Assembly: GCA_002714465.1 (NCBI GenBank)
Contig: PAXL01000011.1
Location: 19,689-35,780 of the forward strand
Reading direction: 5' to 3'
From: Gemmatimonadota bacterium
Lineage (GTDB): Bacteria; Latescibacterota; UBA2968
Length of the DNA stretch: 16,092 bases
Position 1 is the first letter of the stretch. Every line of letters begins with the position of its first letter. The notes below the pieces were generated by a model. It did not search any database. It was not told where the DNA came from and saw only the letters and a program-made list of their open reading frames with translations. Made by a program: the position numbers and the translations under genes. Shown one piece after another: positions 1,788-16,092 of the stretch.

Positions 1788-2513
1788 CTATAGCACAGAG
1801 ATACGGATATCCGCATACCGCGACGTCCGCGTCCACATGTGCCTCAACCCAATCCGTCCTTCCGTGATAAGGTCGAATGCCGACGTATTCCACGCAAAAA
1901 CCGACATCTTCTCCTCGGTCTCCACCTTGAACAGCAGCTCGTGCCCCTTCTTGATGATCGTGAACCGGTGCTTTATGCCCGGCTCGAACAGACCCGTCTC
2001 GAAGTTGTCCGGCGGAATATCGAGTTCGTTGAACTTGAGGTCCGGTCTCGTCGGATATCGTCTTGCCCGCACATACTCGCGAGCGTCATCCTGGTTACCA
2101 TAGGCGGCGTAGCTGATGTGAAGGAGCTTCATATTGTTGAAGTAGGTCGCCATATACGGAATTTCTCGAAGATGCGACCACTCGGCAATGTCCTTGGTAT
2201 ACGGCCCTTCCTCCTTACCAGTTGCCTGGATATAGATGATATTGACATTCCTGGTTGCCGTATCCAACCTCCAAAAGTCGGACTCGATCTTCACGTCGCC
2301 CTCAAACGAATTCTTCGTCCACAGCACTGTGTGACACGCGTGATCCTGCTCCAGAGGACCCGCTGAAAGAATCATCCCCTTTTCCGTGTTCGCCACAGTA
2401 GACCTACTTCCGTCTAGAAACCACTTCTCCTTCCAGTCCAAGGTCCCAGGATCGTAGAGGGCTTCCTGCCAAGCTAGTTGCTCTAGCTCTTCGAATCTCT
2501 CTTCCTTTGACAT
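1788..2513 (-). CDS. DUF1961 (YesU-like) family protein, concanavalin A-like fold
   Basis: The 241-residue product matches the layout of the DUF1961 family, whose member YesU sits in the Bacillus subtilis yes (rhamnogalacturonan) cluster and has a concanavalin A-like lectin/glucanase fold. Shared landmarks are the FWxxxTATRNVNIIYIQATG strand region, LLHISYAAYG followed by DDAREYVRARRYP in mid-protein, the HRFTIIKKGHELLFKVE strand pair, and the terminal EGRIGLRHMW...YADIRIS segment. I chose the ATG at 2513 because GGAGG lies 8 bases upstream; a TTG 36 bases earlier would add 12 residues containing that Shine-Dalgarno. It is the last gene of the six-gene minus-strand run, after hep1. A carbohydrate-binding or hydrolytic role on the lyase products is inferred. 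No signal peptide is apparent. Confidence 0.8.
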   Translation of the reverse strand: MSKEERFEELEQLAWQEALYDPGTLDWKEKWFLDGSRSTVANTEKGMILSAGPLEQDHACHTVLWTKNSFEGDVKIESDFWRLDTATRNVNIIYIQATGKEEGPYTKDIAEWSHLREIPYMATYFNNMKLLHISYAAYGNQDDAREYVRARRYPTRPDLKFNELDIPPDNFETGLFEPGIKHRFTIIKKGHELLFKVETEEKMSVFAWNTSAFDLITEGRIGLRHMWTRTSRYADIRISVL

Positions 2514-2638
2514 CGTCTCCGCCTCCGTTGGGATAGTCTGTATTCCCAAGGGCTCATTCAGTAGAATGCTAAAGAGTCAGACCCACACAAGAGTTCATGA
2601 ACGGGTTCCGGCCTAGCACCTGATTGCTGTTAGTGAGG

Positions 2639-4525
2639 TCATCGCGAAATCCGCAGTTCCACATCTCCAGACTCACCAGGATTGACCAGAGTAAACAGAA
2701 TCCGACTAACCTGATCACCCCAGTATCTCTGTTTCCCCCCGTCGGAGAGATCCCTATTTTCGACATCCACGGTCATCCGTTCTGGATCATATTCGATGCC
2801 CGCCTCCCCGGAGGATCGCTCGCCCTGCAGGACACGTCTTCCCAATACGATTCGTCCCTCCGACACCTGAACGGTACACGGGGTCAGCAGACTAAACTGG
2901 ATCGTGCTTGCAGGTTCGGTGAGCACATACTGGTCCTTGACGGTAACATCCTGACCACGGGTAAGCGCAACTGTCCGGTGCCACATCTTAAGCTTCGCTT
3001 CATCCGGATAGGCACCCGCTATATCCAACGAGAACGTCGCGGTTTGGCCATCGTCGGTCGATGACGCGTCTCTGGCGGCAAAATCGATCCCTGGATCCTG
3101 CATGACCCCATTGATCGTCGGCAGGCTGTGATAGGCGGACTGCATCGTCCAGATAGTGTAGCGTTCCGAGCTAAACGTCTTTCCAGTATAGGGTCCGACA
3201 CCTGCATCGATGATGACTGGGGCTCCGTCGACATACACAATGAAGTGTCCGACGTCGTTGTGGTTATGGCTCTCCTGATTGTGCCCGCCCTTTGCTGCGA
3301 CAAAGAATCCCTCACCCGAACCTCTCTTGTCCCGAGCCGTCATCACCTCGATTTCCGGTAGCCAAGAATACGCTGGTAGCGGCTGCGTCGGCTCCACATC
3401 TGACATCTCAGAACCGTGGAACAGGGTTGGAAGCTGCCTGGCTATGCTGAAATCATTACCGTCCCAGCCCTGCACCTTTGTTGAAAAGTAGACGCCCGCA
3501 CTCATCAGCTCTGCATCACCAATACGTTTTCCATATCGATAGACGAGAAACGGTGCAGGGTTGACCAGGGGCGAGGCATCGGCAAAGTTCACGAACCAGT
3601 TTTCGTATATTTGCACTTTGGTGATAAACGTCCCGATGTTCTTGATCAACGGCTCTCCGTAGACGTCGACCTTCCCGTCCGTCGCCCCGTAGTAGGATTC
3701 CAGACACTCGAACATCGAAGCACCGGCACGCCCCCAGTATCCGGGGCCTTCGTCACAACCTCCGTCCTTCGGATAAGGGTCGATGAAGTTGTCCAGCGCC
3801 CGCATCGTCTTGTGCAGTCCTGCGGCTCGTCTCTCAGGATCCCGTTCCATAAGAAGGATCGTCGTGATCCAGTTCGAGATGATCCAGGGATTCCAGTTGT
3901 TGACCCGATGAAGGTTCTTATCCCGATGGCTGAACCCCATCCAGTGATAGTCTTCACGCTCCAGGAGCGGTGTGAGCATCCTCTCCTGCATCTCGTGATC
4001 CACACGGGGCATGATCATTGTCGACCATTCGTTTATCTGCGTCTCGAGGAGGTAGCACGTCCATGACAGCAGACTCGCCGTTTCCGCAACGAACAGGTCG
4101 ATATGCGGATCGTTGATATTTGACAGATTGGCCCCAACCTTCTGTTGCACCAGGTGCCAGGGCTTCCCCCACCACGATTCCTCGCACACGGCCCAAATGC
4201 CGTCAATAATATCGTCGATGAATCGGCCCTGCCCCTCCGCGCACTCAGCCAGAACAAGTGCAGACAGGGCGTTCCGGTGCGTCGCACGAAACTTCCCGTA
4301 AAGCGAACGTAGCCCCGTTCTAGCCATCTCCATGAACTGGGTCGCCCTGAACACCGTCCACTCGTGACCAAGATACTTCTCGCCGCCCGATATCAGCGTC
4401 CGTCGCGTCTCCGCATCCAATCTCCTCCAGGGTTCACGCTCGTCCCGTGTCGGAAAAGGATGCCAGTCCTCGCGAGGTATCAGAGCCCCTTTTATGTCGT
4501 CGAACGTGTATCTATCAACAAGCAT
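2639..4525 (-). CDS. Heparinase II/III family polysaccharide lyase (hep1)
   Basis: The 628-residue protein has the alpha/alpha-toroid plus beta-sandwich layout of heparinase II/III-type lyases, which cleave uronate-containing polysaccharides by beta-elimination. Key segments are NNWN (209-212) for the likely neutralising Asn, DEGPGYW (258-264) with catalytic Tyr263, and ESHNHNDVGHF with His420 as proposed acid/base. His422, Asp440 (IIDAG) and His466 (YHSLPTINGVMQ) match the spacing of the structural zinc ligands known from Pedobacter heparinase II. The ATG at 4525 follows an AGGGA site; a GTG 45 bases upstream adds an unsupported extension. No signal peptide is visible, so it may act on imported oligomers. 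It is 116 bp downstream of UxuA1 and 125 bp upstream of the DUF1961 gene. Substrate (alginate-, glycosaminoglycan- or other uronate-type) cannot be decided. Confidence 0.88.
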   Translation of the reverse strand: MLVDRYTFDDIKGALIPREDWHPFPTRDEREPWRRLDAETRRTLISGGEKYLGHEWTVFRATQFMEMARTGLRSLYGKFRATHRNALSALVLAECAEGQGRFIDDIIDGIWAVCEESWWGKPWHLVQQKVGANLSNINDPHIDLFVAETASLLSWTCYLLETQINEWSTMIMPRVDHEMQERMLTPLLEREDYHWMGFSHRDKNLHRVNNWNPWIISNWITTILLMERDPERRAAGLHKTMRALDNFIDPYPKDGGCDEGPGYWGRAGASMFECLESYYGATDGKVDVYGEPLIKNIGTFITKVQIYENWFVNFADASPLVNPAPFLVYRYGKRIGDAELMSAGVYFSTKVQGWDGNDFSIARQLPTLFHGSEMSDVEPTQPLPAYSWLPEIEVMTARDKRGSGEGFFVAAKGGHNQESHNHNDVGHFIVYVDGAPVIIDAGVGPYTGKTFSSERYTIWTMQSAYHSLPTINGVMQDPGIDFAARDASSTDDGQTATFSLDIAGAYPDEAKLKMWHRTVALTRGQDVTVKDQYVLTEPASTIQFSLLTPCTVQVSEGRIVLGRRVLQGERSSGEAGIEYDPERMTVDVENRDLSDGGKQRYWGDQVSRILFTLVNPGESGDVELRISR

Positions 4526-4641
4526 GTTTCCCTTTCGATCTCTTTGCAGGACCAGCCGAGCGATAGGCACCGTAAGATTGACCCAGTTGTTGTAGTCTGA
4601 CGACTATCGCCGGGGTGGAGTAATTCGTGGGCAAAACCCTT

Positions 4642-5625
4642 TCAATTAGCGTAAACAGATTCCCGAAGCCCCTTGATATATCCGATCGCGTATAATCTCC
4701 CAATCGATGAGTAGCCCGCACGTTCGTTGCTGTCCCCTTCCATCGTCGGCACGTGGTCCGGGCGCAACACGCCGTCGAATCCGATGTCTCGATAGGCCTC
4801 CATACAAGCCAACATGTTTGTTTTACCTTCATCGTGGAAGGTCTCCTGATACTTCGTAACCGTGCCTTGGACGTCGCGGAAGTGAACGAAAGTGATTTTG
4901 TCCTGCGCCCCAAAGTCACGAATAACAGACGGCAGATCCTCGGTCATTAGCGTGAAGTTTCCTTGGCACATAGTGATAGTATTGCAGGGGCTGTCCACCA
5001 GGTCGATCAGGCGCTGATAGTTCTCGACGCTGCGCATGATCCTGCCCAGACCTCTGATCGGCGAAAGGGGCGGATCGTCCGGATGCATCGACATCTTCAC
5101 ACCCGCTTTCTCTGCGGCGGGCAGAGTGGCCTTCAGGAAGTATTCGAGGTTCTCCCACAATTGCTCCTCGGAGACTTCACCGTATTCCGTCAAAGGCGCA
5201 TCTTTCATCAACTCGTGGTCGTATCCCGTTACAAGAGCACCGCCCCTAGCCTGGATTGTCGACGACGTACGCAGCCAATTCATCACCGGCATCCACTCGT
5301 AGCACCAGACCCTGATACCCAATTTGCCCATGTTGGTGAGCAGGTCAATAACAGTATCGATCTCTTCATCGCGTCCTGGCAGCCCCAGTTTGGCTTTCGT
5401 CAGGGGCGGACGACTTTCCAGCACATCAAACTGGAAACCGGCATCCTGATACTGAGTCTTTAAACGCATCAGGGACATGTATCCCCAAGGAAGCTCCTCT
5501 TTGCTACGTGCCGTATCGATCAAGCTCAGATCCATGCCGCCGACGACGTAATCCACCCCGCTCTGTTTGACCATCTTCCATAGAGGTGATGGGTGAGGCC
5601 CAAGAGCTTCTGCAATCTGAATCAT
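4642..5625 (-). CDS. UxuA-like mannonate dehydratase family protein (UxuA1)
   Basis: UxuA dehydrates D-mannonate to 2-keto-3-deoxy-D-gluconate using a divalent metal in a TIM barrel. All four expected metal ligands are visible: His181 in MHPDDPP, Cys220 in MCQGN, His248 in VHFRD and Asp290 in RPDHVPTM. At 327 residues it is shorter than E. coli UxuA (about 394). The loop that usually reads DWTRTDL is NWLRTSS here (Asn116-Ser122), so the exact aldonate may differ. AAAGGA precedes the ATG at 5625 by about 6 bases. It sits between two heparinase-type lyases in one minus-strand run, which supports a role in uronate catabolism. It is a paralogue of UxuA2 (11896-12903), not a recent duplicate, as the two share mainly the ligand motifs. 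Confidence 0.85.
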
Positions 5626-5709
5626 ATCTTTTCCTTTAAGGAAATAAGGGCCACTTCAACCCAGCCCTGAGGTTCTGGATAGATACTCAAGTGTCCGACC
5701 AGTCTTTGC

Positions 5710-5735
5710 TTGGCCGAGTTCTCGACTCCGGCCAA
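5710..5735. repeat. Intergenic stem-loop between hep2 and UxuA1
   Basis: TTGGCCGAGT (5710-5719) can pair with ACT (5725-5727) and CGGCCAA (5729-5735), leaving one bulged base and a 5-base loop. It lies in the 158-bp gap between hep2 and UxuA1. On the minus transcript no T-run follows, so a simple intrinsic terminator is unlikely. An RNA-processing or stability role is possible but not shown. Confidence 0.45.
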
Positions 5736-5754
5736 ATTGCACCTGAGTTGAGGT

Positions 5755-5779
5755 GGTGTTTTAATGCCTTTGTGGTTCA
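5755..5779 (-). repeat. Copy D of a dispersed TGAACCAC repeat
   Basis: On the minus strand, starting five bases after the hep2 stop codon, the sequence reads TGAACCACAAAGGCATTAAA followed by ACACC. This matches the core of the copies at 11751-11779 and 11855-11888. It is non-coding and follows the gene end in the direction of transcription. Confidence 0.6.
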
Positions 5780-5783
5780 GTAT

Positions 5784-7604
5784 TCAGAGAGACTCACCTG
5801 ACAACCTGACTCGAATCGACAGCGTGTCTTTCTTTATCGTCCACGCAGGAAACCTGAGTTCCAAGCGCTTCAGACCGTCTTTCATAGTGTCCAGCTCCAA
5901 TGGTGGCGGATTGAGCGAGACCACAGAAGGCATAAGCTCCGGGTGTGAAGCCACCTCGAGCGACAATTGCTTGCCGTCCTGTTTCAGAATCGCCCCACCA
6001 AGAAGGATCTCGACATCAGCCTGCGTGATGAGCTGCCAGGTGATGAGGTCGACGGTATCAGATTTCTCGATGTCATCTTCGATCAGCAGGGACCGTTCGC
6101 TGTCCTTGATGAAGGTTCGTCTGGCGCGCTTCAGCTCTCCGAAGAAAGCCGCCGTCATGTCGATGACCGCTTCAGGCCGGTCTCCCGGCTTGTAATCGAT
6201 GATCTCCGCCTTCCCTTCGACGTCGTGTAGCCTGTCGTTAACGGTGATCGTGCTGTGACCAAAGTTGCCCTTGTTCAGCAGTTTCCATCGGTCCCCCTCC
6301 TGACGGGTATCCCACAACCCGAACCCGGTCCTCTCTATGCGTCCATACCTTCCCGTCATACCAGGGTCAATGCTCCAGCGCACACCGTCCAGTTCAAACA
6401 CGAAAGAGCCTCCATCCATGTTCCCGTGGCTCACTCTCCCCCGCCCTCCCTTACACCCCAAGTAGTATTTATTCGGATCGTACACACCACCTCGGAAGAA
6501 GATTATGGGGTTTAGACCATCCCCCTTCCATGCAGTCGGGAGGTCCTCTTCACTGGCTTCTTCGAACTGTGACATCCATACGAGAGAGAGACCTGCTAAT
6601 CGAGAAAACCTGCCCATACTCTCAGGGTCCTGCGTGAACTTCTCGGTCTCTAGGAACCGCTTGTTCCCTGTCTTCGTAGCAAACCATGCCAGAGTCGTAT
6701 CCCCTGCCTTGCCACTTGTCTCGCCGCAGTCACAGAAATTGTAGAGCAAGCCAGATGGGGCATCGCACAACATCCTGAATACTGCACTCTCTTTGAAACC
6801 CGGATATTCGAGGATGCCGAAGTCGGTTCCGAAAGCACTCTCGAACATGGCCGCCGTCACGACAGAGAAGGATGTACCGTAACCCCAGTAGGTCGCACCT
6901 TCGGGATAGACCCCGTCGGGCCCGTAAGAATCCAGAGCATTGGCCATCCCATCTATAGCTCGGTGAATCGTCTTAGCGGCAAGCTCGGGATCGACCTCTG
7001 CGATCGCAAGCGAAGCAGCCACGAGCCCACCGTGACAGACCTGGTTCCAGTTGTTGTGTCCGTAGGCCCAGTGTGGATGCTTACCGTCTTCCGGCCAGCT
7101 AGTATCGATGCCTTTCTCTATCAGAGACTGCTTCGCCAACTCGACCGTTGACGCCGGCAGATCGGGGCCGACCCAATCCACGGCCATCGCGATACCCAGA
7201 CACATCTCGCCCACATCCAGGAAGTGCTTCGGATTCCAACTCGGGAAGTTGCAGGCAGCGATCACCTCTTCATCAATCCGACCCAGCATCCGACGATCGT
7301 TCTCGATCCGGTAAACCATCGCAAGCACGTTAATCCGCAGGAGCAGATCCCTAGAGATATCCAGCTGGTTGTCCTGTGACCGTTCCTCCATCGGGATATC
7401 GAGGTTGATGATCGACTCCTCGAACACCTGCTCTGCATTGAGCTTGATGGCCTTGTAGACGTTCTGAACGACCGGATCCGTGTCGAGACGGTTTCTGAGA
7501 TTTGCCTCGAGCTCCCGGGTCAGAACAAGGCGAGGCAATTCATCCCTCAGATTGTCCTGGAGATAGGACACCGATATCGGATTTTCCAGCTTGTATGTGT
7601 TCAT
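5784..7604 (-). CDS. Heparinase II-like (PL21-type) polysaccharide lyase (hep2)
   Basis: This 606-residue protein is the closest of the three lyases in the window to heparinase II. HNNWNQVCHGG (183-193) supplies His191, PEGATYW (234-240) supplies Tyr239 and VSHGNMDGGSF (391-401) supplies His393. Their spacing resembles His202, Tyr257 and His406 of Pedobacter heparinase II. Asp413 (SIDPG) and His450 (GHSTITVND) fit two of the three structural zinc ligands, but the ligand expected two residues after the catalytic His is Asn395. The protein would cleave an acidic glycan by beta-elimination. No signal peptide is seen. The ATG at 7604 has only a weak GAG-type ribosome site. Neighbours are the RraA-family gene 187 bp upstream and UxuA1 158 bp downstream. 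Family is firm, polysaccharide unknown. Confidence 0.87.
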   Translation of the reverse strand: MNTYKLENPISVSYLQDNLRDELPRLVLTRELEANLRNRLDTDPVVQNVYKAIKLNAEQVFEESIINLDIPMEERSQDNQLDISRDLLLRINVLAMVYRIENDRRMLGRIDEEVIAACNFPSWNPKHFLDVGEMCLGIAMAVDWVGPDLPASTVELAKQSLIEKGIDTSWPEDGKHPHWAYGHNNWNQVCHGGLVAASLAIAEVDPELAAKTIHRAIDGMANALDSYGPDGVYPEGATYWGYGTSFSVVTAAMFESAFGTDFGILEYPGFKESAVFRMLCDAPSGLLYNFCDCGETSGKAGDTTLAWFATKTGNKRFLETEKFTQDPESMGRFSRLAGLSLVWMSQFEEASEEDLPTAWKGDGLNPIIFFRGGVYDPNKYYLGCKGGRGRVSHGNMDGGSFVFELDGVRWSIDPGMTGRYGRIERTGFGLWDTRQEGDRWKLLNKGNFGHSTITVNDRLHDVEGKAEIIDYKPGDRPEAVIDMTAAFFGELKRARRTFIKDSERSLLIEDDIEKSDTVDLITWQLITQADVEILLGGAILKQDGKQLSLEVASHPELMPSVVSLNPPPLELDTMKDGLKRLELRFPAWTIKKDTLSIRVRLSGESL

Positions 7605-7772
7605 CGTGATCTCGATTTGTCGAGCCGAGTCAGAACTTCAGGGCACTGCTCTTAAGACCTTACTCCGCTCACGACTATCCTCAATACGTATGGTTGCCCT
7701 CAGCAGGATCCAAGGACTCGAATTCAAGAAACTGCCTGGAGCTTTTTTTGCGTTGGCTGCGTAAACTCTCAA

Positions 7773-7789
7773 GCAACACGAAGCGTTGC
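7773..7789 (-). repeat. Post-stop hairpin element, RraA copy
   Basis: Two bases beyond the RraA stop codon the minus strand reads GCAACGC TTC GTGTTGC, a 7-bp stem with one G-U pair and a TTC loop. The same arrangement, with changed arms, follows the aldolase stop codon at 8850-8866. Both copies continue with CTTG. Further down, a run of seven A on the minus strand (T on plus, about 7743-7749) follows a degenerate second stem. Placement suggests mRNA 3'-end or inter-cistronic function; this is inference. Confidence 0.5.
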
Positions 7790-7791
7790 CT

Positions 7792-8673
7792 CTACCACGT
7801 CCGATTCTTCAACAGCTCCTGGATCGCCTCCCTTGGGACAGGTAGCTCGTCCATATGGTCCTCAAGCCACTGTGAGAAATCCGACTCAATATGGTCTTCC
7901 CACTTCCGATCAATCTCGCCCGAGGTGTAGACCTCCTCCCGAATTCGCTGCTGACCGAACTGGTCCCTGAAACGAACCAATTCTGATGTCTGCACAACCT
8001 GCTCTGCCAGATGAGCTGGGATGAACACCACGCCATCCTCTTTGCCCAGAACGACGTCCCCGGGCATTACCGTCACCCTACCCATCCGTGTCGGGCAGTT
8101 CACGCCGACAAGCATGATCGTCGGTGAAGCGAACGAGGGATGGTATCCGCGGACAAAGCTGGCAAAACCCGGAAGCTCTTTGATCCCGTCGATGTCGCGA
8201 ACAGCGGCATCGTGTACCACCCCATTCCCCGACTTCGAGTAAATAGACGTCGCGAGGTTATCACCTATTACGGCGCCCTGTTCGATCTTTCCGTAGACAT
8301 CGGCCACATACACATCCCCTTCTACCAGCAAGTCGATCGGCCACGAGATCTGATCACCGATGCACCCCGCATCCTTTCCCTTCGCTTCCATGATCGTTCG
8401 CATCTGCGGCCGGCGCGGCATATACATCGCCGTCAGAGCACGGCCGACAAGCGTCTCTCCGGAATGCGTACAGACAAAACCGTCCTCATACTGCCACTCG
8501 TATCCCTTTCCCCTCAACACCCCCCACGCCTCAGTGATCGTGACCGCCTTCATTCGTTTGAGAATTTCATCCGGCACCCTGGGCCGTCCGTCATCGAACC
8601 GATCCCCGGTCCATTCGCGGGTGTAATCCTTGATCTCTTCTGCGCTCAGATTCAGTGGTGCAAACTTGGCCAT
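7792..8673 (-). CDS. RraA-family (HMG/CHA aldolase-like) protein
   Basis: The central part shows the RraA-fold signature GAVIGDNLATSI (133-144) followed by GVVHDAAVRDIDGI (151-164), with the Arg159-Asp160 pair that in 4-hydroxy-4-methyl-2-oxoglutarate aldolases positions substrate and metal. MPGDVVLGKEDGVVFIP (203-219) completes the fold. Family enzymes perform retro-aldol cleavage of hydroxylated 2-oxo acids to pyruvate; RraA itself inhibits RNase E. At 293 residues this is longer than RraA (about 160) or HMG aldolase (about 230), with an added N-terminal segment of about 40 residues and a charged C-terminal tail (about 240-290). The ATG at 8673 follows GGGGAAG. Context beside an HpcH/HpaI aldolase and lyases favours 2-keto acid cleavage or a related metabolic job over RNase regulation. 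Family is firm, substrate inferred. Confidence 0.84.
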   Translation of the reverse strand: MAKFAPLNLSAEEIKDYTREWTGDRFDDGRPRVPDEILKRMKAVTITEAWGVLRGKGYEWQYEDGFVCTHSGETLVGRALTAMYMPRRPQMRTIMEAKGKDAGCIGDQISWPIDLLVEGDVYVADVYGKIEQGAVIGDNLATSIYSKSGNGVVHDAAVRDIDGIKELPGFASFVRGYHPSFASPTIMLVGVNCPTRMGRVTVMPGDVVLGKEDGVVFIPAHLAEQVVQTSELVRFRDQFGQQRIREEVYTSGEIDRKWEDHIESDFSQWLEDHMDELPVPREAIQELLKNRTW

Positions 8674-8691
8674 ATTTCTTCCCCAGTAAGT

Positions 8692-8708
8692 GCGACCTTT
8701 CTGGTCGC
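8692..8708. promoter_or_regulatory. Hairpin in the 5' leader of the RraA-family gene
   Basis: GCGACC (8692-8697) and GGTCGC (8703-8708) form a 6-bp perfect stem with a 5-base loop. It lies just upstream of the Shine-Dalgarno of the minus-strand RraA-family gene. It could be a leader hairpin, an operator half-site pair, or chance; there is no further evidence. Confidence 0.3.
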
Positions 8709-8825
8709 GACATATCGAGGGTCCAAACGCAATGCCAACGTGCCCCTCGATACGGCCAGTAAATTGCCTTGTTTACCAGACTCCGCGCCGGATTGTCGGT
8801 GTGGCCTACTCAAAATTATTACACA

Positions 8826-8846
8826 CGACTTTGCGAAGCAAAGTCG
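8826..8846. terminator. Strong hairpin between aldolase and RraA genes, possible terminator
   Basis: CGACTTTGC (8826-8834) and GCAAAGTCG (8838-8846) are perfect complements around a 3-base loop, the strongest short stem in the window. In the minus transcript it comes 22 bases after the aldolase stop codon and is followed by TGTGTAATAATTTT, a weak T-rich tail. It may terminate or attenuate readthrough into the RraA gene, or protect the upstream mRNA end. Confidence 0.5.
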
Positions 8847-8849
8847 CAA

Positions 8850-8866
8850 GTAACGTGAAACGTTGC
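8850..8866 (-). repeat. Post-stop hairpin element, aldolase copy
   Basis: Directly after the aldolase stop codon the minus strand reads GCAACGT TTC ACGTTAC, a 7-bp stem with one mismatched pair. It parallels the element after the RraA stop codon at 7773-7789, including the TTC loop and a following CTTG. It stands immediately before the perfect hairpin at 8826-8846, making a tandem hairpin unit. Confidence 0.5.
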
Positions 8867-8867
8867 C

Positions 8868-9749
8868 CTAGACTGGCATCCTTCGCTTGCTGTAATCCCT
8901 CCCGGTTTTTGCCGTCTCCTCGCTACCACCGCTCGCGATTCGAACGCCTTCGTCGATACGTTCTTTGATCGTGTCCGGTGTTCCTCCCGACAGGAACGCG
9001 ACGCCGTTCTCCTTGCAGGCATTCTTGACCCGCTCACGGGCCTCCACCATCTCCTGCGGAAGCGGATTCGGTCTCGTCTTGTATCCGAGCGACATGCTCA
9101 AATCTCCCGGGCCCATCTCTGCAAACCCGACCCCGGGAACCTTTAGACACTGCTCAGTCACGGAAACCCCACGCACGTTCTCGATCTTTAGCCCTAGCAA
9201 CAGCTCGCCCTTAGGATTGAGCGGCCAAGGATCCGCCTTGTCCAGATACTCGTCTTGTGAACAACCCCAGATCTCTGTCGCCGTAGCTTCGGATCCAACA
9301 CCCCGACGACCTTCGTGCAAACCGTATCCGACGCCCTGGCGGTTGATCGGATACCGGCATTCCTCCACGAACGCCCGGACAGCGTCAGCTGACTGGACCA
9401 TACAAAGCAGGATTCCGTGCACACCACGAGCAAGGACCTGACGGAACTGCCACGCATTCGCTCGGATCACGTCCTCTGAGGATCCGTCTACGGGAACCTC
9501 GACAATCACAGTTGGCGTTCGATGCCCGCTGTTTGTCGGGCCACCCGCGACCAGACCTTTCATGTAGTTCGCCAGACCGGTCATGTCGAAACATCCGTGC
9601 TCCATGCCCACGTTGATATAGTCCGCCCACGTTTGCGCATCGGCCTGGCCTTGCTCGAACGTAAGGACGTGCCCCGTATGCGCGCCAGTGTAGTAGACCG
9701 TCTGGCCCTCCGAGAGAAGCTCTATAGCTTTGCTGATTCTGGTCGCCAT
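8868..9749 (-). CDS. HpcH/HpaI-type aldolase family protein
   Basis: Class II pyruvate aldolases of this family split 2-keto-3-deoxy acids into pyruvate (or a related keto acid) and an aldehyde. In the 293-residue product, VGMEHGCFD (47-55) carries the catalytic His51, LKIENVRGV carries Glu190 and GVGFAEMGPGDLS (206-218) carries Asp216; the last two match the metal-binding pair. Two features are unusual: the Arg expected in the first beta-strand motif (usually 'VRvp') is Glu84 in IVEVP, and about 35 extra residues lie between 140 and 180. The start at 9749 has AAGGAG six bases upstream; an in-frame extension to 9869 would overlap the divergent transporter and is rejected. It heads the six-gene minus-strand run. 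Substrate is likely a product of UxuA-type dehydration (inference). Confidence 0.83.
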   Translation of the reverse strand: MATRISKAIELLSEGQTVYYTGAHTGHVLTFEQGQADAQTWADYINVGMEHGCFDMTGLANYMKGLVAGGPTNSGHRTPTVIVEVPVDGSSEDVIRANAWQFRQVLARGVHGILLCMVQSADAVRAFVEECRYPINRQGVGYGLHEGRRGVGSEATATEIWGCSQDEYLDKADPWPLNPKGELLLGLKIENVRGVSVTEQCLKVPGVGFAEMGPGDLSMSLGYKTRPNPLPQEMVEARERVKNACKENGVAFLSGGTPDTIKERIDEGVRIASGGSEETAKTGRDYSKRRMPV

Positions 9750-9823
9750 CTGAATCTCCTTGTCATTCAACCACCCGAATCTGCCCATTCGAGTATATTC
9801 AGCACCATAAAAAGGGAGCAAAG
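9750..9823. promoter_or_regulatory. 74-bp divergent promoter region
   Basis: The starts of the aldolase (minus) and the membrane protein (plus) are only 74 bp apart, so promoters for both must lie here or overlap the genes. TATATT at 9794-9799 (plus) and TATACT at 9792-9797 (minus) could be -10 boxes, but I see no convincing -35 boxes. Shared control of uptake and catabolism is plausible. Confidence 0.35.
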
Positions 9824-11740
9824 TTGGAGTCACCTGAAAAGAAAGAATCGGCCTACGCGACCGCATCAACCCTGGTTATCGGTTTGGGATTGGTCGTTTT
9901 CATGGCCCTCTGGATCATCTACAACCAGTATATCCTGCGTTCCTCTAGACTCAACCTGAATCACAACCTCCCGGTCGCAGTGATGGCTCTGTTCCTCCTT
10001 CTCGTGGCCATCCGATCGCTGCGTCCCACCTGGATCAACCGCAACAGACTCATCCTGCTCACCTCGATGATCCTCGGCGCAAGCTATATCCCGGGCGATG
10101 GTCTGATGAGCCACGTTATGGGGTCATGGGCCATGCCGGTCTATTTCGCCACACCGGAGAACCAGTGGGAAACCTTCCATCCCTACCTGAAGCCCTGGAT
10201 CGTGCCACTGGAGGCCCAGGGCGTGCGATGGTTTCACGAGGGGCTTCCCGATCAGAGAGATCTGCCCTGGGGCCTTTGGTTCCGACCCCTTGTCGGTTGG
10301 GCCTCCGTCGGTCTCGCCATGATCGCCGCCTCAATCGGGCTCTCCTCGCTCTTTCGGAAGCAATGGATAGAGAACGAGAAGCTCACCTACCCGATGATGA
10401 TCCCGCTTCAGATTCTGGCAGGAGACCGTCAGAACCTGATTCGGTCCTCTGGAAAAATCCCGCTCTTCTGGGTCGGATTCGCCGTGTCGTTCGGGGTCAT
10501 CGCCTGGAATATCGTGACTTTCTTCAACGACCAAATCCCGAAGATAGAGCTGAATCACGGGTGGATGCAGTTGGTCTCCGGCGGTATGAACGTTTTTACG
10601 AAGCAGATCAATTTCCTGACTCTGGGCCTCTCCTATTTCGCAAGTGTGGAGGTCCTTGTCAGCACCATCGTCTTCTTCATCATCAAACACGCTGAGATCA
10701 TGGTGGCAAACCGTATCGGCTATACGCTGCCGATCGCGGGCGGCGCGAATCATCCGGGCTCCTCGAGTGCCCTGATCAGCTGGCAGACCGCAGGTGCGTT
10801 CCTCGTCTACGTCGCCTGGGCTGTCTGGACAGCCAGAGACCACATCCGATCGGCATTCTCAGATGCCATACACAATCGGCCCCGACAGGATCCTGAACTC
10901 CTAACGTCGAGGGCCGCCTTCGCTCTGATCCTTCTCGGGGTGACGTATGTAATGTTGTGGCTGGTTGCCGCCGATGTCGAGCTGATCGTCGCGGCATCGA
11001 TACTCTTGGCCCTGCTCGTCTCCTACGTCGGCATCTCTAAGATGAGTGCAGAGGTCGGTCTGCCCTATCTCGGGAGCCCTTTGGGAGCGGAGGCCTTCAC
11101 CGTTGCGGCCGTCGGAACAGCAGCGATGCGTCCCGCCTCGGTCCTGATGCTGACATATTCCAGAAACTTCGAAGGGTATAATAGCGGGATGATCATGTCG
11201 CAGTTGACCGTGCTGCAAAGACTCCGCGGCAATCTGAACCCTGCACACCTTCTGGTCGGTGTTTTGGGCGCACTTGCTGCCGCCTACCTCGTCTCGATGC
11301 TGTATGTGATCTGGATGGGATACGAGACCGGCGCCTACAACTTCAACTCATACACCTACACCTACTACGCAAGACAATCCTACCATCGTGTCGTCTTCCG
11401 ATTCAACAACCACTGGCCTGTTGACTTGCATAGACTCGCCATCCTGGCGATAGGGGGCGTGGCAATGGCGGGGATGATGGGGATGCGATTCAAGTTTCCC
11501 TGGTGGCGTCTGAACTCTATCGGATTCGCGATCCCGCTCCTCCCACACCAGTTCTCGACCTTTGTGATCGCGTGGCTGATCAAGACAACCCTCCTCCGAA
11601 CCGGCGGCATGGAAGCCTTCCAGCGTGGCATTCCCTTCTTTGTAGGTCTGTTCTCGGGTCACGCCGCGGGCGTTGCCGTCTCCAGTTTAGTCGACTTCAT
11701 CTTCTTCCCCCGCTCAGGCCACGCTGTCCACTGGTGGTAA
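9824..11740 (+). CDS. DUF6785/DUF6784-like polytopic membrane protein, probable transporter
   Basis: This 638-residue protein has roughly a dozen hydrophobic spans, for example near 14-36, 49-66, 152-176, 212-234, 266-288, 318-336, 364-403, 475-496, 537-554 and 603-626. Recognisable family features are the YFATPENQW motif (107-115), HPYLKPWIVP and VRWFHEGLP (134-142), the RKQWIENEKLTYPM loop (178-191), and a C-terminal IGFAI...WLIKTTLLRTGGMEAFQ...PFFVGLFSG stretch. I recall these from DUF6785 plus DUF6784 proteins of Planctomycetes and Poribacteria. It starts at a TTG with GGGAG five bases upstream; no in-frame ATG is nearby. No biochemical function is established for the family. Divergence from a catabolic run and convergence with a second one suggest uptake of the glycan breakdown product. 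Confidence 0.8.
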   Translation: MESPEKKESAYATASTLVIGLGLVVFMALWIIYNQYILRSSRLNLNHNLPVAVMALFLLLVAIRSLRPTWINRNRLILLTSMILGASYIPGDGLMSHVMGSWAMPVYFATPENQWETFHPYLKPWIVPLEAQGVRWFHEGLPDQRDLPWGLWFRPLVGWASVGLAMIAASIGLSSLFRKQWIENEKLTYPMMIPLQILAGDRQNLIRSSGKIPLFWVGFAVSFGVIAWNIVTFFNDQIPKIELNHGWMQLVSGGMNVFTKQINFLTLGLSYFASVEVLVSTIVFFIIKHAEIMVANRIGYTLPIAGGANHPGSSSALISWQTAGAFLVYVAWAVWTARDHIRSAFSDAIHNRPRQDPELLTSRAAFALILLGVTYVMLWLVAADVELIVAASILLALLVSYVGISKMSAEVGLPYLGSPLGAEAFTVAAVGTAAMRPASVLMLTYSRNFEGYNSGMIMSQLTVLQRLRGNLNPAHLLVGVLGALAAAYLVSMLYVIWMGYETGAYNFNSYTYTYYARQSYHRVVFRFNNHWPVDLHRLAILAIGGVAMAGMMGMRFKFPWWRLNSIGFAIPLLPHQFSTFVIAWLIKTTLLRTGGMEAFQRGIPFFVGLFSGHAAGVAVSSLVDFIFFPRSGHAVHWW

Positions 11741-11750
11741 CGAACCGACC

Positions 11751-11779
11751 TGAACCACAAAAGCACTAAAGAAATGAGG
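11751..11779 (+). repeat. Copy A of the dispersed TGAACCAC repeat
   Basis: Eleven bases after the transporter stop codon the plus strand reads TGAACCACAAAAGCACTAAA, then a degenerate tail. It is the inverted partner of copy B, whose GTGGTTCA end lies at 11881-11888. Confidence 0.6.
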
Positions 11780-11843
11780 ACCGAAGGGGGGATGAAATGT
11801 TCCCCGGCACTACCGACCTCAGAAGCTCTCTCAAGTCTAACCC

Positions 11844-11857
11844 ACACGTAGCCGTGT
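11844..11857 (+). terminator. Weak candidate terminator after the transporter gene
   Basis: ACACG (11844-11848) and CGTGT (11853-11857) form a 5-bp stem with a 4-base loop, followed on the plus strand by CCTTTT. It lies between the convergent transporter and UxuA2 genes. The stem is short, so the call is tentative; GGGGA/TCCCC at 11788-11805 is a second short stem nearby. Confidence 0.3.
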
Positions 11858-11888
11858 CCTTTTCGTGTCTTGGTGTCTTAGTGGTTCA
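11855..11888 (-). repeat. Copy B of the dispersed TGAACCAC repeat
   Basis: On the minus strand, seven bases beyond the UxuA2 stop codon, the sequence reads TGAACCACTAAGACACCAAG and then ACACGAAAAGG. It is the best-preserved copy of the family in the window and faces copy A across the convergent gap. Confidence 0.65.
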
Positions 11889-11895
11889 AGCCTTT

Positions 11896-12903
11896 CTACC
11901 CGTAGACGTCTTCGATCAACCTCCGGATATACCCGATACAGTAAGCCTTCCCCAGCTTCGATGAGAGTGGCGCGTTCTCGCCCGTGAACTTCGGTGTGTG
12001 GTCCATCATAAACGGACCGTTGAACCCATTGTCCCTGTATATCTCCATCGAGCGCTTCATATCAATGTCACCGTTATCCGGAAAAACTTCCTCAAAGTAG
12101 GGAAGTCGGCCTCTCACGTTCCGGAAGTGCACCCACTGGATCTTGTTCTTTGACGCCATCTCTTCGATGAACCCGTAGACTCCCTGACCCAGGAGCTCGG
12201 TCATGCAGCCCTGACAGAACAACATCTTGTTGCTGTCACTCAAAACAGAGTCGAAGATGCGACGGAACTGATCCGTCGATGAGCAGACCTGCCAGACACC
12301 CCCAAGAGGTTCCGGGACCGGAGGATCGTCCGGATGCAGCGCCATCACGACGCCGGCCTTCTCTGCGACCGGAATGACAGCCTTGAGAAAACGCTCCATC
12401 CGCTCCCACATCTCTGCCTCCGAGACCTGTGGTGAATACGCCTTCTCTTGGTTGCGGTCGCGCATGTAGGTATCATAGTCGAAAGTGCTATAGCTGACCC
12501 CGCCGCGACCGATCGCCGATTCCGTCCGAAAATTCCCCATCGGTTTGTAGTTCCAACCAAGAGCCGGGATCCCGGCCTGCCCAAGTGACTCCAAAAGGCG
12601 GATCCAGTTTTCCACCTGCTCATCCCCTCCGTCCAGTCCAAGCGGAATTTCTCGTGGACAGGAGAAGAAAATGTTGTTCAGCTTCAGCCCCTTAGCTTCG
12701 ATTTTCTCCCTTGCCTGCTCAAGCAGCTCCGTCTTGTTCCTTCCGTCCGCGATGTTCATGTCGTGGCCATCGACATTCACGGAACCACGAGTCTCCAGAT
12801 GAATCGTATCGACACTGATCGCCTTAAAAAAATCGAGCCAGTCACTATCTAGGTTTTCCCAGCTTATCTGATCCTGTATCAGCATATCATCCTCGTTGGT
12901 CAT
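11896..12903 (-). CDS. UxuA-like mannonate dehydratase family protein (UxuA2)
   Basis: The 335-residue protein shows the UxuA metal site: His190 in LHPDDPP, Cys230 in FCQGCM, His259 in VHFRN and Asp301 in MMDHTP. The family reaction is dehydration of an aldonate such as D-mannonate to a 2-keto-3-deoxy acid. The substrate-loop motif near 116-130 reads GWNYKPMGNFRTES rather than the usual DWTRTDL type, so it is more diverged than UxuA1. Its ATG overlaps the stop of hep3 as ATGA, implying translational coupling with that lyase; an internal ATG at codon 7 is a less likely start. It ends convergent with the transporter. Two different UxuA-like enzymes in one locus suggest two aldonate epimers or isomers as substrates (inference). 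Confidence 0.84.
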   Translation of the reverse strand: MTNEDDMLIQDQISWENLDSDWLDFFKAISVDTIHLETRGSVNVDGHDMNIADGRNKTELLEQAREKIEAKGLKLNNIFFSCPREIPLGLDGGDEQVENWIRLLESLGQAGIPALGWNYKPMGNFRTESAIGRGGVSYSTFDYDTYMRDRNQEKAYSPQVSEAEMWERMERFLKAVIPVAEKAGVVMALHPDDPPVPEPLGGVWQVCSSTDQFRRIFDSVLSDSNKMLFCQGCMTELLGQGVYGFIEEMASKNKIQWVHFRNVRGRLPYFEEVFPDNGDIDMKRSMEIYRDNGFNGPFMMDHTPKFTGENAPLSSKLGKAYCIGYIRRLIEDVYG

Positions 12904-14852
12904 TCAAGAGATAGTTCCGGGCTCCCACCAGTCACAGGGATCGAAGCCTCTATCCCGTTTCCATCGATTGTCCCACTGACACGAACAATGTCTTCCTGGT
13001 CTGACAACGTCAACTCGATCTGTGCGAGCGAGTTCTTCCACGGTACGATTGCCCAGCCGAACGACTGTCCTGACCGCTTACCTGTGTAACTGACACAAGT
13101 TGCGGGGGCCTTATGGTTGTACTCCCTGCTATACCAGCCCTGAATGTAAGGTGGCTCCTGACCACGGATGGTCTTAGCCGTTCCATTCCACCCTCCGATC
13201 GGATACAGAGACACCGAACCCGATGGGTGCTCGGCTACGGAGACCATATCCTCAAGCACCACCTCTACATCTGGATGGAAGTGCCAGAGCGCCTCTATTT
13301 CACGGTCGGCATCGCTCGTCACACGATCGATCACGATCCAACCGATCCCACGCATATACATAACCGACCGATTGTGAACAGCGTTTCCTTCGAGACCCTC
13401 GTATCCAGCCGTGAACGCACTTCTTGCGAAATCAAACTGTTCCTGGACCGTGTAACTGCCTTCCTCGAGAGGCTCATCGACTTCCTTCACATCGGGCTTC
13501 TGCTCACAATCGTCTATAATCAGCGTGTTGTGTGCCCGCGTCCCCTGGATCCAGTCACGCCAGGCATCCTTCTTGTAGTAGAGTCGACCCGCATCGACGA
13601 GAAAGTCCTGGCCGTATGTCGATACCGACAGGTGTAGCTTGTCTTGATGCTGATGGCCGATCCCCCACGGTCCAACATCGAACACGCTCCAGTGTGCATC
13701 AGCATCCCATCCGCTGCGTGAGATCAGCTGCCCCGCCCAGGGAAACATCTGTGATGGAAGACTTTCGGGGCGTTCTCCCATATTTCCGTTCGATGCGATG
13801 TAGGCCCAGTCGGGTCGGCTGAAACGCGTGTGCATCCGAAACAGCTTCGGCCGATTGTAGTCAAGGTTCGAATCGTTGTTCAGGACACCGTGCCCGTCAG
13901 GCCGCAGTGAGTAGGCCCAGTAGTTCCACATACCCTCAAGGCCGTCGTACCAGGCCTGCGGCAGCTGCTCACCCGCCTGCTCGTAGAGATCGGTGAAGGA
14001 CTGGAATGCCATTAGTGTCGAGCCATGGTAGTGGCTGGCGAGCTCCTTCTGCGCGCCGTCCGGGGATACCTGTCTCTCGATCTGCGGGAGAAGAGCGTGG
14101 TAGCTGTACGCGATCCAAGCTTCCTGATCGCGGAACTCGGGGAACGCCAGACCAGAGAGAGAGAGAGATCGCATCTGCATCGCCAGCCAGTTGCCCGTGT
14201 TGTTGTGGAAGTGTTGTGTGTAGTGGGCGTGCTCAGGGATGCTGGAAAGCAGAAGAATACGCGTCCCATCCTGCAGCTTAGGATCATCGATCAGCCCGTA
14301 GAACAAGTTCGACCAGACATTGATGCGAGACATCGTCTCAAGCCCTCGCCATCTCGGGTCTCGCGTCTGTTCCCAGCCATAGGGATTGACGATCACCCAC
14401 TCGCGTATGTCCGAGTCGACCCGCTCGATATACTTCGCGTTACCTGTCTCCCGATATGCCGATATGAGGATCTCTATATGACCGTGCCGATTCAGGAAGT
14501 ACGCCCATTCCGCATCGTCATTCGGACCCCGATACGTCCATTCGAGCGATCCGTCGGGCTTTCGATCCGGCGAGCCGGTCACGTTCAGGAACGTGTATTC
14601 ATCCCGTAGAATGGCCTCGGCGGCAGTTGTCGTATCTTCACCCGCCACCACACGCTCTGAGCCCCATCTCTCGGCCAAATCAGACCCCGCGTAGTGATCG
14701 AGCAGCACGCGGCAAGCCTTCACCTTGTCTCCCTGTCGCCACGCCTCATTGACGCCCGTCAAGGCTTCGCTCTTCAGATCGAGCGTCTCGAAAAGCGCAT
14801 CAACACGTTGCGATTGTTCCTGACACACCCATTCGATTGTTGCCCCCACCAC
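12900..14852 (-). CDS. Heparinase II/III family polysaccharide lyase (hep3)
   Basis: With a GTG start at 14852 the protein has 650 residues, an N-terminal helical toroid domain and a C-terminal beta domain as in heparinase II/III-type lyases. Active-site segments are HNNTGNW around Asn217-Asn218, SHYHGST with Tyr275, and GHQHQDKL with His400; His402, Asp420 (LVDAG) and His441 (RAHNTLIID) suit the metal site. A GGGAG site precedes the GTG at 14852; an adjacent GTG at 14849 is equally possible. The frame is open to 15026, but the extension includes translated intergenic repeat (copy C) and is rejected. The stop overlaps the UxuA2 start. The sulfatase lies 340 bp upstream on the same strand. No signal peptide is visible. 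It differs clearly from hep1 and hep2, so it probably has a different bond or substrate preference. Confidence 0.87.
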   Translation of the reverse strand: MVGATIEWVCQEQSQRVDALFETLDLKSEALTGVNEAWRQGDKVKACRVLLDHYAGSDLAERWGSERVVAGEDTTTAAEAILRDEYTFLNVTGSPDRKPDGSLEWTYRGPNDDAEWAYFLNRHGHIEILISAYRETGNAKYIERVDSDIREWVIVNPYGWEQTRDPRWRGLETMSRINVWSNLFYGLIDDPKLQDGTRILLLSSIPEHAHYTQHFHNNTGNWLAMQMRSLSLSGLAFPEFRDQEAWIAYSYHALLPQIERQVSPDGAQKELASHYHGSTLMAFQSFTDLYEQAGEQLPQAWYDGLEGMWNYWAYSLRPDGHGVLNNDSNLDYNRPKLFRMHTRFSRPDWAYIASNGNMGERPESLPSQMFPWAGQLISRSGWDADAHWSVFDVGPWGIGHQHQDKLHLSVSTYGQDFLVDAGRLYYKKDAWRDWIQGTRAHNTLIIDDCEQKPDVKEVDEPLEEGSYTVQEQFDFARSAFTAGYEGLEGNAVHNRSVMYMRGIGWIVIDRVTSDADREIEALWHFHPDVEVVLEDMVSVAEHPSGSVSLYPIGGWNGTAKTIRGQEPPYIQGWYSREYNHKAPATCVSYTGKRSGQSFGWAIVPWKNSLAQIELTLSDQEDIVRVSGTIDGNGIEASIPVTGGSPELSLE

Positions 14853-15192
14853 TGTTCTCCCTTCCCGAGCCGCGACCTTTGCGATACGTCCTTCACCTAA
14901 AATGGGGTCCGGACTCCTTGAAGCTACAGCCGTTTCGCTTTCGTGTTTTTTCGTGTCTTTAGTAACCAGATTTTGGTTATCTAATAGTCCGACACAGCCC
15001 CATCCCTCATTCTCGCATCTGCCCACTTGAACTAAGTGTTCATCCGCACATCACCGTCGTGCAGCGAGTCGTTCAGATCGCCATCGACAGACTCCGTATA
15101 CATCTCTCCAAGCCCACCTGGCGACTCTCGCACACAGAGCTCCCTCAACTTTCCAAGATCCACATGCCTTAAGTTTGTCTCCTGCTCCCCGT
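14853..15192. other. Gene-poor gap between sulfatase and hep3
   Basis: These 340 bases hold repeat copy C (14931-14967), a small hairpin TAACCA/TGGTTA at 14963-14979, and most of an unrecognised 65-codon minus-strand frame that ends at 15032. No promoter is evident. The hep3 ribosome site lies at its left end. Confidence 0.5.
14931..14967 (-). repeat. Copy C of the dispersed repeat, degenerate
   Basis: The minus strand reads GGTTACTAAAGACACGAAAA followed by AACACGAAAGC. It matches the AAGACACGAAAA part of copy B, while the leading TGAACCAC is eroded to GGTTAC. Read in the hep3 frame it encodes VTKDTKKHES, a low-complexity string characteristic of translated repeat rather than protein. Confidence 0.55.
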
Positions 15193-15229
15193 TCAGGCTG
15201 GTAGTGGATGCGTCGGGCTCTCCGGCCAT
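15032..15229 (-). CDS. Small unrecognised frame after the sulfatase, possibly a gene remnant
   Basis: A 65-codon frame starts inside the sulfatase 3' end in another reading frame and ends 180 bases before the hep3 start. Its second half (LRELCVRESPGGLGEMYTES and the following VDGDLND segment) has protein-like composition and no low-complexity sequence. There is no Shine-Dalgarno before its ATG. It may be the residual 3' end of a deleted gene, a coupled small protein, or chance. I recognise no family. Confidence 0.22.
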   Translation of the reverse strand: MAGEPDASTTSLNGEQETNLRHVDLGKLRELCVRESPGGLGEMYTESVDGDLNDSLHDGDVRMNT

Positions 15230-16092
15230 CCATTCAACATGTTCGGAATCTCACCATCCAACAGAGGATCCTTCGTATCGCGCATCCATTGTTCCAAGCG
15301 TTCCGCGAGATCATTCTTCACATCCTGATGACTCGAGTCCTCAGCCAGGTTGTTCCAATCGTAGGGATCCTTCTCCAGATCGAACAATTCATACTCTGGA
15401 CGGGGATCGTCCCCTCCGGGGAAAAGGCTCGACGGGTAGGACTCGAACGTCTCCCGTATTTCTGGCACGGTCTCCGGTGTATAGGCGGTCTTCAGTGAAG
15501 TATCGAAGTTCCGGATCAGGTGATACGACTCCGTGCGAACCGAACGCATCGGATCGTTGCTGGGTCCGTGCCAGTTCCTCTCAGCAAATATGTGTGTTCG
15601 CGGCGTATAATCCCCTCCTGAGAGCAGAGGCCAGAAGGACGTGCCCTCGAGGATCTCGGGTATATCCTCTCCGGTCGCATCGAGGAACGTCGGCGTGTAA
15701 TCGATGTTCTGGATCATGTGATCCACCGTCGTGCCCGATTCGATTCCCGGTCCACGCATCATACACGCGATTTCCATGCCCAGCTCGTAGAGCGTTCCTT
15801 TCCCTCGCAAGCCCTCCATACCGTGATCCGTGTTGAACATGATGATCGTGTTGTCACGGTATCCCAGCCGGTCGATCGCGTTAAACAGCCGGCCGAGGTG
15901 GAAGTCGAGGTAGCGGATACATTCCTGGTAATTTGCCATCTCCTCCCGAACCTGAGGCGCATCCTTGAACGTCGGCGGAACGGGTGTACGTTCTAGGTCC
16001 TTCCACCCGTACCGATCGATCGGTGGATTGGAGCCGCCCTCCTCACGGTTGGCGAAAAACGTGCCCCATTGCGACCCGTGGACTTCGGTCGT
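15193..16092 (-). CDS. Sulfatase (alkaline-phosphatase-superfamily type), N-terminus outside the window
   Basis: The minus frame is open from the right edge to a stop at 15193, giving 299 C-terminal residues. Family hallmarks are the HGSQWGTFF region near the start of the visible part, the RYLDFHLGRLFNAIDRLGYRDNTIIMFNTDHG block whose Asp-His belongs to the metal site, the GKGTLYELGMEIACMMRGPG segment with the conserved Lys, DYTPTFLDATG, and the ELFDLEKDPYDWNNLA motif near the C-terminus. The CxPxR/SxPxR formylglycine motif lies beyond the window, so activation type cannot be judged. The visible part contains no transmembrane segment. The enzyme would hydrolyse sulfate esters, here probably on the glycan cut by hep1-3. 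It lies upstream of hep3 and UxuA2 on the same strand. Confidence 0.92.
   Translation of the reverse strand, partial: TTEVHGSQWGTFFANREEGGSNPPIDRYGWKDLERTPVPPTFKDAPQVREEMANYQECIRYLDFHLGRLFNAIDRLGYRDNTIIMFNTDHGMEGLRGKGTLYELGMEIACMMRGPGIESGTTVDHMIQNIDYTPTFLDATGEDIPEILEGTSFWPLLSGGDYTPRTHIFAERNWHGPSNDPMRSVRTESYHLIRNFDTSLKTAYTPETVPEIRETFESYPSSLFPGGDDPRPEYELFDLEKDPYDWNNLAEDSSHQDVKNDLAERLEQWMRDTKDPLLDGEIPNMLNGWPESPTHPLPA

Follow-up and report, generated by a model that had tools for sequence, protein, structure and literature searches.

Here we describe a window of 16,092 nucleotides, that is, the whole stretch of DNA running from position 19,689 to 35,780 of contig PAXL01000011.1 (assembly GCA_002714465.1), in which genes for three heparinase-like polysaccharide lyases (PL), called HepA, HepB and HepC, lie among genes for two mannonate-dehydratase-like proteins (UxuA1 and UxuA2), an HpcH/HpaI-fold protein (HpcH), an RraA-family protein, a sulfatase and a DUF1961 protein. 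According to its open reading frame (ORF) list, to Pfam and NCBIfam scans of 12 ORFs and to comparisons with related genomes, the window looks like a mosaic of two modules drawn from known enzyme families, together with two unusual enzymes, UxuA2 and HpcH, that recur together. Its GC level stays between 54 and 57%. Module 1 has counterparts in two relatives, G001 (Gemmatimonadetes RS821, locus L001) and G002 (Latescibacteria UBA6620, locus L002), and module 2 is found in G001 on a separate contig, C35. The features are listed by module.

15193..16092, minus strand: sulfatase, C-terminal part, cut by the window end; module 1 (SGSH_C 77.2 bits, Sulfatase 53.5 bits)
12900..15026, minus strand: HepC, PL12 heparinase III-like lyase; module 1 (Hepar_II_III_N and Hepar_II_III_C, 160.5 and 110.6 bits; true start uncertain)
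11896..12903, minus strand: UxuA2, divergent UxuA; module 1 (140.6 bits)
9824..11740, plus strand: DUF6785 and DUF6784 membrane protein, possible transporter; module 1 (285 bits; hydropathy)
8868..~9749 (open frame to 9869), minus strand: HpcH, HpcH/HpaI-fold protein; module 1 (PF03328 48.6 bits)
7792..8673, minus strand: RraA-family protein, 293 aa; module 1 (PF03737 68 bits; 5x15 63 bits; 3noj 36.6 bits)
1788..2549, minus strand: DUF1961 protein, YesU-like galectin/ConA fold; module 1 (PF09224 31.5 bits, cut-off 25)
5784..7604, minus strand: HepB, PL35-like lyase with Hepar_II_III_C; module 2 (8khv 329 bits)
4642..5625, minus strand: UxuA1, mannonate-dehydratase-like; module 2 (PF03786 303 bits; 1tz9 160 bits)
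2639..4570, minus strand: HepA, PL33-like lyase with Hepar_II_III_C; module 2 (8r73 434 bits)
3260..5310, no strand: tract of near-identity with G001 contig C35, inside HepA and UxuA1 (nucleotide comparison)
636..1499, plus strand: PhyH-family oxygenase (110 bits), a conserved flank of module 1 in relatives, adjoining the module in L001 and L002
3-686: end ORF without a Pfam or NCBIfam match, 78-93% conserved in G001 and G002 beside PhyH

All gene families named in the initial annotation were recovered by these scans, with two amendments. The gene that it had called an orphan transporter is present, but its product belongs to DUF6785/DUF6784, a family of unknown function, and shows about ten hydrophobic segments by hydropathy. 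As for the sulfatase, the family stands, but only the C-terminal part of the gene lies within the window. Kinase, KDPG (2-keto-3-deoxy-6-phosphogluconate) aldolase (Eda), SusC/SusD and ABC transporter families gave no match among the 12 scanned ORFs.

The three different lyases of that annotation fall into three known lines: by alignment, HepA is PL33-like, HepB is PL35-like and HepC is PL12-like, each with the catalytic Asn/Tyr/His. In HepA, residues N225, Y278 and H435 align with N238, Y291 and H444 of BtPL33 (alignment to 8r73), the catalytic residues of PL33 being those that PMC11848413 reports. HepB matches the structures 8khv (329 bits), 8khw and 9o3q, the first two described as PL35 GAGases in PMC12088678 and the third named a PL35 chondroitinase in the structure listing. 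It keeps the catalytic residues N184, N185, Y239 and H393 of PL35 (for this family and PL12, residues are as reported in PMC12088678), and both Asn of the neutralizer pair are kept, which is the glycosaminoglycan (GAG)-type and not the alginate-type pattern set out in that report. Three of the four Mn ligands of GAGase II (His403, Asp405, Asp421 and His457) are aligned in HepB, His403 being replaced by Asn395; at this position the G001 homologue of HepB (L096, 49%) has Ser, and L086 and L087 (~31%) have His. HepC, in turn, matches heparinase III 4mmi with 104.7 bits, its N279, Y333 and H458 corresponding to N240, Y294 and H424. The N-terminal hydropathy maxima of the three lyases are low (0.21, 0.50 and 0.98), and L096 has a hydrophobic start (1.82). 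Having no signal-peptide-like start, the window lyases are perhaps intracellular, hydropathy being a hint only.

The description of the region as a SusCD-free uronate-glycan locus thus holds, with lyases that match PL12, PL33 and PL35 structures and no SusD match in G001 and G002. Over the eight relatives that we considered, namely the genomes of L001, L002, L005, L008, L009, L014, L021 and L023 (three of which, L008, L009 and L021, are chromosome 1 records of 5.7-6.5 Mb), partial SusD matches over the cut-off occur in four.

Among the best 80 of 269 confirmed HpcH loci, synteny with the window is limited to L001 and L002. The former comprises genes for a sulfatase, an ADP-ribosylglycohydrolase, an enolase-type dehydratase, HepC, UxuA2, DUF6785, HpcH, RraA and DUF1961, followed by two DapA-family genes, a 294-aa ORF, a further heparinase, PhyH and the end ORF; there, RraA directly adjoins DUF1961. 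The latter holds an enolase-type gene, two UxuA2 copies, HpcH, RraA, DUF1961 and a DapA homologue, with no lyase match. The nearest named proteins to HpcH and DUF1961, Candidatus Latescibacteria DCE37_23610 (84%) and DCE37_23600 (65%), bear close locus tags, in agreement with this synteny. The HepB-UxuA1-HepA set is missing from the L001 and L002 regions. In G001 it lies on C35, as UxuA1 (97%), HepA (88%) and a HepB remnant, in the neighborhood of an SSF symporter, a sulfatase, an aldehyde dehydrogenase and a TonB receptor with CarboxypepD_reg domains. The HepB-like remnant carries in-frame stops and stands upstream of UxuA1 (L095, ~8623-9430; G001:C35:30623-31430).

Between positions 3320 and 5239 the window differs from G001 contig C35 by 23 mismatches in 1920 columns (98.8% identity), while module 1 around it is 72-83% identical to L001 in pieces longer than 500 bases. 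The edges of the tract are abrupt: outside ~3260 and ~5310, the next several 50-base blocks carry 6-18 mismatches each, and homology continues on both sides. The simplest reading of this pattern would be a recent exchange covering 3260-5310. It could also be argued that the whole neighborhood is incidental, a product of recent rearrangement or of an assembly mosaic that corresponds to no single pathway. The position of module 2 elsewhere in G001, the abrupt edges and the recurrence of HpcH, UxuA2 and RraA each without lyases are in line with such an origin; nevertheless, a single chimeric join would not leave homology flanking the tract on both sides, and HepC, UxuA2 and HpcH are found together both in the window and in L001, so that we regard it as unlikely.

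A conserved single locus was rejected, given that HpcH, RraA and UxuA2 recur without lyases. The conserved co-occurrence of the locus genes, whose lack the initial annotation had named as telling against its own proposal, is largely lacking: a heparinase neighbors HpcH in 1/80 loci at the ORF level and in 2/80 by tblastn. Heparinase-like genes vary widely among the relatives (the HepB query gave 16 matches in G001 and 0-4 in the others).

By alignment, UxuA1 keeps the metal His/Cys/His/Asp and the RPDH and GYSxIGR motifs of Escherichia coli UxuA. In UxuA2 the metal residues H/C/H/DH are kept in the aligned rows, and the RPDH Arg is missing, as it is from all 23 orthologue copies, from 22 loci, that exceed 50% identity. 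UxuA2, L001 and both L002 copies also lack the GYSxIGR Tyr; both the Arg and the Tyr presumably have functional roles in UxuA. A loss of this Tyr across all UxuA2 orthologues, read from a MAFFT alignment, was withdrawn, since GY or AY is present near that site in eight of the 23 copies (L014, L021, L023, L037, L039, L042, L162 and L163) and the alignment is not decisive. UxuA-family matches number 9-33 per genome in G001-G008, although uronate isomerase (UxaC) was not found in any of the eight relatives.

UxuA2 and HpcH stand together in nine of the 80 HpcH loci, and L001 alone among these nine has a heparinase match. A search of 64 genomes of the phylum (E up to 1e-60) retrieved UxuA2 in 45 and HpcH in 32; as counted from the search rows, the two lie within 5 kb of each other in 12. 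The lyase check covered nine of these 12 genomes, that is, all except G045, G049 and G051. In 15 further regions (13 around UxuA2 and two around HpcH), no HepA, HepB or HepC match was obtained by tblastn. Sulfatases occur in four of the UxuA2 loci (L159, L162, L163 and L165) and in one HpcH locus (L173), that of L159 being 75% identical to the window sulfatase. From such gene content, a link of UxuA2 and HpcH with sulfated sugar acids is suggested. At locus L173 (G004:C1:998000-1017000), the HpcH homologue is accompanied by a DUF3604 protein, by a DUF6785-like protein (28%) and by the sulfatases, of which there are two.

The AlphaFold2 model of HpcH has a predicted local distance difference test (pLDDT) score of 75.5, and its best Foldseek matches are the HpcH/HpaI aldolases 2v5j and 4b5w, with a template modeling score of ~0.6. 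The protein was aligned with YfaU and GarL of E. coli through two homologues of ~30% identity as bridges (tblastn against plasmids gave ~24-34% identity among 20 of 108 records listed, and two of them served as these intermediates). Residues were counted in the 78 of the 80 loci that gave an ORF. The metal Glu/Asp and the His45 equivalents are kept in 78/78, and the site of Arg70 is Glu in 78/78 and invariant across 22 alignment rows, whereas it is Arg in YfaU, GarL and both bridges, and Lys in a shorter Latescibacteria paralogue. Arg70 and His45 reportedly matter for specificity, for the cleavage of the C-C bond and for stabilizing the enolate (PMC8560999). HpcH as a canonical aldolase, on the strength of its Pfam match, was consequently rejected, and its pyruvate-aldolase activity appears doubtful because Arg70 is replaced by Glu.

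These data bear directly on the route proposed in the initial annotation, in which HpcH and/or RraA would cleave the unphosphorylated 2-keto-3-deoxy acid of the lyase products into pyruvate and an aldehyde. HpcH does fold like a class II pyruvate aldolase and retains the metal ligands, in the 12 phylum genomes mentioned above it is at most 5 kb away from UxuA2, and among the 80 loci its neighbors include enolase-type dehydratase homologues in 19 and IlvD/Edd in five. Furthermore, the juxtaposition of UxuA2 and HpcH resembles rhmD-yfaV-yfaU of E. coli, and DapA-family homologues adjoin module 1 in L001 and L002. However, the Glu at the Arg70 site, the scarcity of HpcH near lyases and the presence of kinase and Eda elsewhere in the relatives make this route quite unlikely. 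Some unphosphorylated cleavage of a sugar acid, not necessarily a lyase product, is possible by analogy, because UxuA2 and HpcH are repeatedly found next to each other, as in rhmD-yfaV-yfaU.

The RraA-family protein shows a GD...RD motif, aligned with 3noj at a weak score, whose residues we take to be functional, and all its NCBIfam scores are below the cut-off. Full-length orthologues of at least 68% identity were found in 21/64 phylum genomes, together with one partial match in G052. Regions were fetched for 20 of the 21; longer overlapping frames hid some genes, so they were rechecked by tblastn. HpcH, UxuA2 and DUF1961 stand beside RraA only in G001 and G002. RraA was thus rejected as a cluster marker, 18/20 of the fetched regions being without the rest of the cluster. 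This scattered distribution also weighs on an oxidative alternative, in which the lyase product would be converted to 2-keto-3-deoxyglucarate, then by RraA to alpha-ketoglutarate semialdehyde and finally by an aldehyde dehydrogenase. The precedent is FlDet, an RraA-family dehydratase/decarboxylase of 2-keto-3-deoxyglucarate, as described in PMC8563752, and the aldehyde dehydrogenase near module 2 in G001 scores 345.7 bits with the alpha-ketoglutarate semialdehyde dehydrogenase model. Nevertheless, the latter enzyme fits lactaldehyde dehydrogenase better (514.9 bits) and reaches none of the cut-offs among 25 of 45 families listed, and FlDet has 237 aa against 293 in the window protein; altogether, the oxidative scheme is distinctly improbable.

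For the DUF1961 protein, the AlphaFold2 model (pLDDT 91.7) has YesU (1oq1) as its top Foldseek match (E 4.9e-11); a sequence search of the PDB gave a single chance-level hit (E 0.69). YesU is reported to bind fucosylated glycans, and its gene to adjoin that of a rhamnogalacturonan acetylesterase (PMC6120924). From this modeled fold, a carbohydrate-binding role is likely. The literature on DUF1961, DUF6785 and DUF6784 is mostly unrelated, and YesU alone was useful.

The unphosphorylated route had been argued from the missing kinase and Eda, and this argument fails in the relatives. Eda is over the cut-off in 8/8 of them, and in four (G001, G002, G003 and G008), but not in the other four, a PfkB match is found no more than 1 kb away from Eda. 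Therefore, absence from the lyase locus is not absence of the pathway there; in the relatives, kinase and Eda are not adjacent to the module locus. The pair was family-checked in G001 only, where Eda exceeds the TIGR01182 cut-off of 156 with 179.5 bits and the kinase scores 358 bits with the KDPG aldolase/sugar kinase fusion model and 243 bits with the model for kinases of 2-keto-3-deoxygluconate (KDG) and 2-keto-3-deoxygalactonate, both under the cut-off. In addition, a PfkB match lies ~1.6 kb from the UxuA1 orthologues (68-69%) of G005-G007. Contrary to what is commonly inferred, a pathway gene that a window lacks may still be encoded elsewhere in the organism.

Among the enzymes that would feed this pathway, UxaC and KduI were each found in 0/8 relatives (control matches in 7/14 and 6/14 known genomes, respectively), and GH88/105 gave three weak matches and none over the cut-off in the eight (control matches in 3/14). 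GH88 is reported in other Latescibacteria (PMC4454575), which speaks against a lineage-wide absence. The 3keto-disac_hyd family (PF06439) occurs in 8/8 relatives, none linked to this locus, and the literature on the 3-keto-glycoside route held nothing that alters the reading.

Taken together, we consider it moderately probable that an uncultured, Latescibacteria-like bacterium has in this window a composite locus for catabolism. By synteny, module 1 (sulfatase, HepC, UxuA2, DUF6785, HpcH, RraA and DUF1961) is shared with G001, and its UxuA2-HpcH-RraA-DUF1961 part alone with G002. Module 2 (HepB-UxuA1-HepA) would be a separate cassette; it is placed elsewhere in G001, whereas in the window RraA and DUF1961 flank it, and a part of it seems to have been exchanged recently. 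As for substrates, localization and flow of intermediates, we infer that the sulfatase and the three lyases would break sulfated glucuronate glycans of the hyaluronan, chondroitin or heparan type by beta-elimination, perhaps inside the cell, and that UxuA1 would lead to a 2-keto-3-deoxy acid handled by a KDG kinase and Eda encoded elsewhere. The UxuA2-HpcH pair would serve independently in acid catabolism, and its substrate need not be a lyase product.

Several points weigh against this composite locus. UxuA1 would need mannonate, yet UxaC was not found in the eight relatives, nor was KduI, nor GH88/105 over the cut-off, which leaves the conversion of lyase products into KDG without an explanation. 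The evidence for kinase and Eda comes from relatives and not from the window's own genome; the G001 kinase appears KDG-kinase-like, though below the NCBIfam equivalog cut-offs, and the PfkB proteins near UxuA1 in G005-G007 are of uncertain specificity (L097, the one scanned, is best as a fructokinase, 75 bits). A His403 Ala mutant of GAGase II is among those reported as completely or substantially inactivated (PMC12088678), and the corresponding change to Asn could weaken HepB. The hydropathy test is unspecific, the L095 sulfatase reaching 1.78 at its first strand. Finally, the 3260-5310 tract could be an assembly mosaic.

A further proposal, speculative and rather unlikely in our opinion, is that, in genomes without UxaC and KduI and with no GH88/105 over the cut-off, the UxuA paralogues and the UxuA2-HpcH pair, each with an altered active-site residue, convert sulfated or lyase-made uronic acids in a new way that is neither classical mannonate dehydration nor cleavage of the pyruvate-aldolase kind. 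Since heparinase-like genes are so unevenly spread among these genomes, the substrate would not have to come from a lyase in every one of them. Be that as it may, a gap is exposed, as relatives such as G001 have GAG-type lyases, yet none of the three enzymes by which uronic acids usually enter metabolism was found there (GH88/105 over the cut-off). The Arg-to-Glu change and the recurrence of the UxuA2-HpcH pair make it a clear target for enzyme discovery.

Compared with known systems, the locus is a modest variant of known uronan loci. Sulfatases and SusCD occur in the Bacteroides polysaccharide utilization loci that carry PL12, PL33 and PL35 lyases. The window shares with them the same lyase families, the catalytic Asn/Tyr/His and a sulfatase, but it has no SusC/SusD among its 12 scanned ORFs and has UxuA, HpcH and RraA enzymes instead, GH88/105 not being over the cut-off in the eight relatives. 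With rhmD-yfaV-yfaU of E. coli it has in common a dehydratase, a transporter-like protein and an HpcH/HpaI protein side by side; here, in contrast, the dehydratase is UxuA-type, HpcH has Glu for Arg70 and lyases are present, while L001 and L002 also carry an enolase-type gene nearby. In Flavobacterium UMI-01, as reported in PMC8563752, the oxidative DEHU pathway (FlRed-FlDet-FlDeg) likewise has an RraA-family protein near a polysaccharide lyase, the gene of FlDet, which acts on 2-keto-3-deoxyglucarate, adjoining an alginate lyase gene, and a kinase/Eda route is kept in parallel elsewhere in the genome; the lyase there is for alginate and here GAG-type, and FlDet is shorter. No literature joining Latescibacterota, polysaccharide lyase and sulfatase was found under that combination. 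Nevertheless, the 2015 report on Latescibacteria proposed sulfatases and heparin lyase for ulvan, with uronate products entering central metabolism (PMC4454575). Its single-cell genomes are described with a GH88 unsaturated glucuronyl hydrolase and an ExuT-like transporter, neither of which is in the window, and what they share with it are the sulfatases and the heparin lyase.

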